This document shows positions 56,844 to 59,020 of a DNA stretch of 64,000 nt, piece after piece. Below the pieces are notes generated by a model. It saw only the letters and a program-made list of their open reading frames with translations, did not search any database and was not told the origin of the DNA. The DNA is from Klebsiella sp. RHBSTW-00484 (lineage in GTDB: Bacteria; Pseudomonadota; Gammaproteobacteria; Enterobacterales; Enterobacteriaceae): NCBI RefSeq assembly GCF_013705725.1, contig NZ_CP055481.1, positions 806,001 to 870,000 of the forward strand. Direction: 5' to 3'. Position 1 is the first letter of the stretch; every line of letters starts with the position of its first letter. A program made the translations under genes and the position numbers.

Positions 56844-58763
56844 TTAAAAGGCGTAAGCCACGCTTAAATTGCCGCTATAGCCGTGGCTGTCGCCGCCGCT
56901 GGCGATTTCCGCCTGACCGCCCAGGTTCAGGCTCAGTGCGCCGCGCGTCACGCCAATGTTGGCACCTGCATTGAACATATCGCGGCTATTGAAGGCCGAG
57001 TTTTGTACGACCTCATATTGATAAACTTGTCCACGAGTGCGCACCGAGGGGCCGCTGAAGCTATGTTCATAGCCGACATTCACCGCCGGGGAAATCGTCC
57101 AGCTGCCACTGTTTTGCGGATTAAAGGCGAAATTAATATTGGCAATGCCGCTGGCATTATTTTCGCTGACGCGATCGACGTCGAGCGCCAGTTCGCTGCC
57201 GTTCTCATGGAAGGCATCCATGCGCAGATGGGTTAATCGGGTGCCGACAGAATACTCGACGCTGGCGAAATCGAGCGGGCTCACGTAGCCCAGGCGTAGC
57301 GTGCCGCCGAACAGTTGTCCGTGGGTATCGCCAGTGGCGGTACCTAGTCCGCCGCCCATCTTGCGGGTGCTGCTGTAATCAATCCAACCGGCGTTAAGAT
57401 CGGCTGCGGCAAAGAGACCGTGATTAAGATCCTCGAATGCATAGTGGCCACCGAAACCTAACAACGTGGTATTAGCATCCGCGTCGGCGTTGGCGCTGCC
57501 TAGTGAACCCCAGCTATATCCCAGCGTGCCGTAGCCGCTAAACTGCGAGTTCACCCTCTGGGTATAACCCAGCAGCGTACCAGTGGTGTGCTCATTGCTG
57601 CTGGCGGCGCGGGCGGAACCGTCGGTACCCAGATAACCGTTAAGCCCGGTTAACCACAGTTTTCCTTCGCCGTCGCGCAGCTGGCGGCTGTCGATATTCG
57701 GTGCCAGCGCACGATCCAGACGTGAGCCGCTACGCAGCAGGTAACTCGCGGCATCCGCATGAATTTGTCCGCCAACCTGAGACTCCACTCCGCCAAGCGT
57801 CCCGACATCAATAGCCGATTGCAGATAGTTGTTATAAGCGGTGTAACGGCCGGAAAGCTCACTGTTTTGTAGCGCGTTAAGCAGCGCCGCGCCCTGTGCC
57901 GCATTCCCCCGTAGCCCGCTCTGCCCTGGAAGCTGACCATAATGGACCATTTTTCCGCGCAGCACGTAGAGAGTCTCCTGCGATAGCCCCAGCCCTTGCT
58001 TCAGATAGTTATCGACGGAGCCGTACTCGCGGGTGATCTCATCCAGTCCGGCCTGCAGATAGCTGGCATCGACGCCAAGCAGCGGCTCGTAAATCGCTGC
58101 CATAGCTGGCGGCATCATCGCCAGGGTCGCCTCAATACGCTGACGAGTGTAATCGTTGGTGGCGAGGTAGTTTTCCATGATGGTCGTGTTGTCGACACCG
58201 GCGATACTCAGCAACATGGCGGCGGTCCAGCCGGTTCGGTCTTTGCCTGCGGTGCAGTGGAACAGGGCGGCACCGTCGGCGCTGGCCAGATCGTTAAACA
58301 GAGTGCTGAACTGCGCGCGCATCCCGGCATCGCTGACGAAAGAGACGTTGGCCTGCTGCATCATCGCTTTTGCTTCAGCTGCGCTGGTGACGTTAATCGA
58401 GGCGGTATTACTGCCCGAAGCTGCATTGCCGATGATATCAATATTGGTATAGGTTGCCCCGTCGGGCATCACGTCCGGGCTGCTGGCGATTTCGCTGGTG
58501 GTACGTAAATCATAAACATCGCTGATGCCAAGCGTGCTGAGCGTAGCCTGGTCTGCGGCGGATAACGCCAGGGCATTAGAGCGATAAAATACCCCGGTGC
58601 GCATGGTGCCATCATGGCTGGTAGTATAAATCGAGGTAGTGCCGGCAATATCACGAAAATTATCCATGCTAGCGAGCGTGGGCGTATTTATTGGCGCGGC
58701 GTATAGCGCACCAGAGACGGCAATGGTGACCAGAGAGACTGTAACAGGAATATAGCGAATCAA
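56844..58763 (-). CDS. Autotransporter with a tyrosine-phosphatase passenger domain
   Basis: This 639-residue protein joins an exported phosphatase to an outer-membrane barrel. After a signal peptide (residues 1-22), residues about 30-270 form a Y_phosphatase3-type (MptpB/LipA-like) domain. It has NFRDIAG at 35-41 and the complete P-loop HCTAGKDRTG at 169-178 (nucleophile Cys170, Arg176). A linker (about 275-365) leads to an autotransporter beta-domain (about 370-639) ending in the outer-membrane signature LSVAYAF. The phosphatase would be displayed on, or released from, the cell surface. The substrate is unknown. It is monocistronic and GC-rich like its neighbours. Confidence 0.9.
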   Translation of the reverse strand: MIRYIPVTVSLVTIAVSGALYAAPINTPTLASMDNFRDIAGTTSIYTTSHDGTMRTGVFYRSNALALSAADQATLSTLGISDVYDLRTTSEIASSPDVMPDGATYTNIDIIGNAASGSNTASINVTSAAEAKAMMQQANVSFVSDAGMRAQFSTLFNDLASADGAALFHCTAGKDRTGWTAAMLLSIAGVDNTTIMENYLATNDYTRQRIEATLAMMPPAMAAIYEPLLGVDASYLQAGLDEITREYGSVDNYLKQGLGLSQETLYVLRGKMVHYGQLPGQSGLRGNAAQGAALLNALQNSELSGRYTAYNNYLQSAIDVGTLGGVESQVGGQIHADAASYLLRSGSRLDRALAPNIDSRQLRDGEGKLWLTGLNGYLGTDGSARAASSNEHTTGTLLGYTQRVNSQFSGYGTLGYSWGSLGSANADADANTTLLGFGGHYAFEDLNHGLFAAADLNAGWIDYSSTRKMGGGLGTATGDTHGQLFGGTLRLGYVSPLDFASVEYSVGTRLTHLRMDAFHENGSELALDVDRVSENNASGIANINFAFNPQNSGSWTISPAVNVGYEHSFSGPSVRTRGQVYQYEVVQNSAFNSRDMFNAGANIGVTRGALSLNLGGQAEIASGGDSHGYSGNLSVAYAF

Positions 58764-59020
58764 AATAAGCCTCGATATTTATGGATTGTAATGTGTTGTT
58801 TATTAAGGCTTGAGAATATAGGGTGGGATTGTGACAGAATTATGTCCAGATGGTTTTTTTGTGAAATAAACAAGGCGAAATTAGATTAGGTTTATTTATG
58901 GAATATATTGTTTCTCTCACGTTAAGTCATATTAATCATTCGCCATATTAATCTTTTACATCCCGCTCGCGGCAGCAGGATGTTATTTTATTTTTTGATC
59001 AGGCAGTCATTTTGCTCTAT

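Follow-up and report, generated by a model that had tools for sequence, protein, structure and literature searches.

The question raised by this locus is whether a single gene of the window (the whole stretch of 64 000 nucleotides analysed) encodes a phosphatase carried to the cell surface by its own autotransporter barrel, as the first-pass annotation proposed, and, if so, what such an enzyme might be used for. The favoured answer, with a probability of about 0.85, is that the protein is a surface-displayed enzyme of the atypical lipid phosphatase (ALP) type, to which MptpB and LipA belong, on an EstA-like type Va autotransporter. The gene and the parts of its product are:

56844..58763, minus strand: phosphatase autotransporter gene, 639 aa, TTG start, intact ORF
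58698..58763, minus strand: likely signal peptide, cut after ALYA (residues 1–22, read by eye)
57945..58676, minus strand: passenger, Y_phosphatase3/ALP domain (residues 30–273, Pfam PF13350)
58230..58259, minus strand: catalytic P-loop HCTAGKDRTG (residues 169–178)
57666..57944, minus strand: helical linker (residues 274–366)
56847..57665, minus strand: translocator barrel ending in VAYAF (residues 367–639, 12 strands by our own count)

The ORF contains no internal stops, and a direct reading of the sequence places GAGG 6 nt 5' of the TTG at 58761–58763. In the upstream alignment TTG is the start codon of five Klebsiella copies (the window, L003, L004, L023 and L024), while the L005 copy starts with GTG. 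In L006, L008, L009 and L013 the match begins with a GTG codon, in Rouxiella (L011) with ATG. A weak start codon, kept among copies, may keep expression low. The gene is under purifying selection, with Nei–Gojobori dN/dS values of 0.06–0.10 against Klebsiella orthologues (L023 0.098, L003 0.085, L024 0.060, L004 0.085) and of 0.05–0.07 against the same four for the phosphatase domain alone. Amino acid identity to L023, L003, L024 and L004 was 0.947, 0.967, 0.914 and 0.906 in the phosphatase domain and 0.957, 0.932, 0.875 and 0.849 in the barrel, so that the passenger is the more conserved part in three of the four pairs, the exception being L023.

Both halves of the proposed architecture were recovered. 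Pfam assigns residues 30–273 to Y_phosphatase3 (PF13350; E 2.6e-63, 214.7 bits against a cut-off of 22.2) and residues 369–612 to the autotransporter barrel (PF03797; E 2.7e-28, 99.9 bits against a cut-off of 26), both scores lying well outside what chance would give; a search of NCBIfam with the 639-aa protein matched no model. The P-loop lies where it had been placed, with C170, K174, D175 and R176 as its catalytic residues, all four invariant in an alignment of 20 rows (A1). The description as a dual-specificity or tyrosine phosphatase stands as regards phosphatase and can be made more precise, as the passenger combines the Y_phosphatase3 fold of ALPs with a loop that fits the ALP pattern HCXXGKDR[TA]G. 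When the solved structures were searched by sequence at E up to 0.01, only a Clostridioides difficile PTP (8dhi, E 1.1e-19) and MptpB (1ywf, E 1.3e-19) were found.

Conservation of these features was examined in 200 homologues, a biased sample because it was drawn from the best 120 of 813 and the best 120 of 776 matches. Among these listed matches all 200 contain HCxxGKDR, and 199 contain HC..GKDR[TS]G, the exception (P0038) having I at the next place. C170 is the sole cysteine of the window protein, and exactly one cysteine follows residue 30 in 199 of the 200 listed homologues; the exception, P0134, has three such cysteines, a pair of which (33–34) lies within a longer N-terminus. We infer that a lone cysteine is compatible with a reactive-thiol enzyme that transits the disulfide-forming periplasm. 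The genus also contains relatives that have no barrel (23 loci, L002 and L027–L048, with open frames of 260–357 aa), and these have 2–5 cysteines each. One such relative, a frame of 260 or 313 aa with the P-loop HCAVGKDRTG, is present in 18 of 20 genus genomes, including that of the window; a second, of 350–357 aa with the P-loop HCRGGKDRTG, was found at five loci (L039, L045–L048).

The remaining parts of the protein would fit an exported type Va autotransporter. The N-terminus is hydrophobic with an ALYA site, as judged by eye only, and residues 1–21 have pLDDT below 50 in the AF2 model, which overall is confident (pLDDT 87.9, pTM 0.82). Model residues 28–274 match MptpB-type phosphatases and residues ~327–639 match type Va translocators, including the linker helix. 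Linker helices were modelled at 286–300, 309–320, 333–343 and 345–357, those at 333–357 falling within the ranges aligned to NalP, EspP and AIDA-I, and many columns between 278 and 344 are invariant in alignment A1. The barrel ends in the expected outer-membrane signature, a C-terminal F that is shared by 200 of the 200 homologues among the matches listed. In Foldseek the top match was full-length EstA, followed by AaaA and NalP, with MptpB and the C. difficile PTP for the passenger; of the top matches, two were long-chain autotransporters, EstA and AaaA. VIA-align gave the same domain-by-domain assignment, with the NalP alignment starting at residue 331 and that of EstA at model residue 276. 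The full-length superposition on EstA is loose (TM 0.44, rmsd 15 Å) and the VIA-align match to EstA begins only at 276, so the placement of the passenger on the barrel is not confirmed. Location of the passenger outside the outer membrane, as first proposed, is supported as a prediction from homology by Pfam, Foldseek and VIA-align.

Full-length matches were found in six of 20 genomes of the genus, in at least 11 of 295 of the family (both counts including that of the window) and in at least one of 197 of the order, the one being the window's own. The family and order counts are lower bounds, because those surveys used a threshold of E 1e-60 and in some genomes only part of the first-look candidates was scored. 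Carriers named among the matches listed were Klebsiella huaxiensis, K. spallanzanii, K. michiganensis, K. oxytoca, Raoultella, Mixta, Rouxiella, Scandinavium, Leclercia, Kosakonia, Entomohabitans, Commensalibacter and many Pseudomonas; Pseudomonas predominates and the enterics are scattered. No DNA match to the gene was found in complete Escherichia coli genomes. Plasmid carriage was dismissed, as none of 174 matching plasmid records spanned 80 % or more of the query, and the 20 rows among the plasmid matches listed covered the phosphatase part only. Two damaged copies were seen: that of Pseudomonas putida KH-21-134 (L019) looks frame-broken, with a longest open frame at the locus of 347 aa, and one family copy (L067, genome G440) has a stop codon within the match.

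The adjoining aminotransferase gene is present in all 20 genus genomes, and in 6/6 carriers the autotransporter gene lies beyond its 3' end in the opposite orientation. The gap between them is roughly 530–800 bp in five carriers and ~1450 bp in the sixth (G005), where a 233-aa frame intervenes. In the 14 non-carriers tblastn detected no trace of the autotransporter within 1500 bp of the aminotransferase gene, and in four of them that stretch includes the SDR gene, which in the window is separated from the aminotransferase gene by the autotransporter gene. Since all six carriers share the position and the 14 others have no trace within that distance, the gene counts as accessory, with a fixed place beside a core gene. 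For partner genes 18 loci were compared; L010 was left out as its frame was not caught, and the 17 others were scored together with the window. The 17 scored relatives showed no partner gene that is conserved from one genus to another. A LysR gene is near the autotransporter gene in 7 of the 18 (17 loci plus the window), but the LysR proteins of Klebsiella and Pseudomonas share just ~27–28 % identity and their orientations differ, so its recurrence is put down to the commonness of the LysR fold and not to a conserved partner.

A small midpoint-rooted tree of 27 chosen proteins placed the window protein with those of Klebsiella, Raoultella and Mixta, within a larger clade (support 98/97) that adds most Pseudomonas rows. 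The alphaproteobacterial Commensalibacter proteins grouped, at a support of 100/100, with a second set, six enterics that include Entomohabitans, Scandinavium and Leclercia. This grouping suggests horizontal transfer of the gene, but the tree is small and midpoint-rooted, and the two Commensalibacter rows are atypical in composition. The record 'Pantoea sp. Ap-967' contributed two divergent copies (L008 and L015); as both sit among Pseudomonas, its genus label may be wrong.

Taken as an EstA-like display system, the protein would be exported by Sec, its C-terminal barrel would insert in the outer membrane, and the N-terminal phosphatase domain would pass to the cell surface, where the helical linker would probably keep it tethered rather than let it be released by cleavage. 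Cys170 would attack phosphate monoesters while Arg176 binds the phosphate, with Asp175 of the P-loop as the putative acid/base and Lys174 possibly helping to bind inositol-lipid substrates. Three ALPs with HCTAGKDR cleave pNPP, phosphotyrosine peptides and monophosphate phosphoinositides, and ALP activity on simple metabolites is modest (Table 2, PMC3091653). These three share their loop with the window protein, since each has only T for F relative to the HCFAGKDR of MptpB. Pho16B, a soil ALP with a signal peptide, is a promiscuous enzyme whose substrates include InsP6, although its main substrate is another (PMC6409689). Candidate substrates would include aryl phosphates, phosphotyrosine peptides, phosphoinositides and inositol phosphates. 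A location at the surface, if confirmed, would speak for phosphoesters outside the cell rather than for host signals in the cytosol. The likeliest use would be hydrolysis of extracellular phosphoesters for nutrition or surface chemistry, a role that is favoured but unproven and to which we give slightly less than even odds.

A narrower reading would make this specifically a phosphate-starvation gene under PhoB control, and two upstream elements bear on that:

58815..58820, minus strand: candidate -10 element TATATT, present in 6/6 aligned upstream regions
58831..58848, minus strand: PhoB-box-like 18-mer, score 12.5, 10 bp upstream of TATATT

Scored against the PhoB-box consensus, the 18-mer is the best site on both strands of the window (the next scores 12.0); in the same genome the highest-scoring boxes of pstS and phoB reach 14.0. 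Attractive as the pair of elements is in this genome, the box is not kept: the aligned sites score 11.5 in L003, 10.5 in L024, 9.5 in L004 and 10.5 in L005, the L023 copy is seen in the alignment to diverge there as well, and unrelated 300-bp regions already reach best scores of 10.5 to 11. The sigma-70 scan returned four promoter-like sites against 3.0 expected, the TATATT not being among them, and no good -35 for it was seen by eye. Control by PhoB is accordingly unlikely and is not claimed here, as the orthologues keep the TATATT and not the box. With the site not kept in orthologues, and Pseudomonas relatives scoring no higher than 10.5 in 300 bp, the nutritional role has no regulatory support.

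Two other readings concern the target and the location of the enzyme. In the first it would be a surface factor aimed at a host, comparable to LipA or MptpB held on a tether, and would remove phosphate from host proteins or phosphoinositides upon contact. The passenger is of the same family as these two, and the carriers include the opportunists K. oxytoca and K. michiganensis as well as Commensalibacter and Entomohabitans, which are known from insects; ALPs also cleave phosphotyrosine and phosphoinositides (PMC3091653). However, the names among the matches listed are largely Pseudomonas, the 17 scored relatives share no partner gene across genera, and a passenger that in three of four pairs is more conserved than its barrel is unlike an arms-race antigen. 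Host phosphoinositides and most phosphotyrosine are, moreover, cytosolic and beyond the reach of a tethered enzyme. We consider this reading rather improbable, and the action on host proteins suggested in the first-pass annotation found no specific support. Alternatively, the passenger could stay folded in the periplasm and act on phosphoproteins or lipids of the cell itself, the barrel being a mere anchor. PTP domains are compactly folded, and exporting such folds through a type Va barrel is demanding, but nothing specific supports periplasmic retention, and the barrel and linker match those of true translocators. One of these is EstA, which displays a compact enzyme domain on the outside of the cell. 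We consider this reading very improbable. The EstA passenger has an alpha-helical fold (PMC5767081).

The reading as a surface-displayed ALP enzyme could be extended, speculatively and with the odds clearly against it, to a strictly single-cysteine family of phosphatase autotransporters that acts at the cell surface to scavenge phosphate, taking it from inositol phosphates or the head groups of phospholipids. Such a family, spread horizontally among enterics, Pseudomonas and acetic acid bacteria, would be the first case of an ALP tethered outside the cell and serving nutrition or dealings between species. ALPs have been treated mainly as virulence phosphatases of pathogens (PMC6409689, PMC3091653), and a conserved ALP group on the surface of many Pseudomonas and scattered enterics would point to a further use of the fold. 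It would also offer a test case for type Va export of a compact enzyme that bears a reactive cysteine.

Compared with known systems, the passenger shares its fold (Y_phosphatase3) and P-loop pattern (HCxxGKDR) with MptpB (PDB 1ywf, 2oz5) and Listeria LipA; the match to a Listeria record with the annotation lipA is 32 % over residues 35–283. Unlike the window protein, neither has an autotransporter barrel: the MptpB chain has 296 residues, and the LipA match covers the phosphatase part only. Pho16B, from a soil metagenome, is likewise an ALP with a signal peptide and an HCXXGKDR P-loop and provides a substrate model (PMC6409689), but it is a 38 kDa protein and the word 'autotransporter' is absent from the text of that paper. 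EstA of Pseudomonas aeruginosa (PDB 3kvn) differs in carrying a GDSL esterase as its passenger, and its full-length superposition is loose (TM 0.44). MapA of Moraxella catarrhalis is an experimentally reported autotransporter-displayed phosphatase, though an acid phosphatase placed with non-SPATE proteases (cited in PMC3419190). A bioinformatic survey of 2018 already describes 'phosphatase/hydrolase autotransporters' (PHATs), tyrosine phosphatases among them, as a class (PMC5767081), and an experimental study of a tyrosine phosphatase autotransporter was not found among the literature matches listed; the earlier remark that such passengers are rarely discussed was thus fair. The survey assigns members by InterPro IPR029021, and its relevant passages treat neither the P-loop of ALPs nor the single cysteine, nor any members from Klebsiella. 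The tyrosine phosphatase subgroup of PHATs otherwise agrees with the window protein in its alpha-helical passenger, in having no identified autochaperone and in its type Va barrel (PMC5767081). As such passengers are classed there as PHATs and MapA is cited in PMC3419190, the window protein is of an already known kind: it belongs to a named class that has been little studied experimentally, and its architecture is not new.
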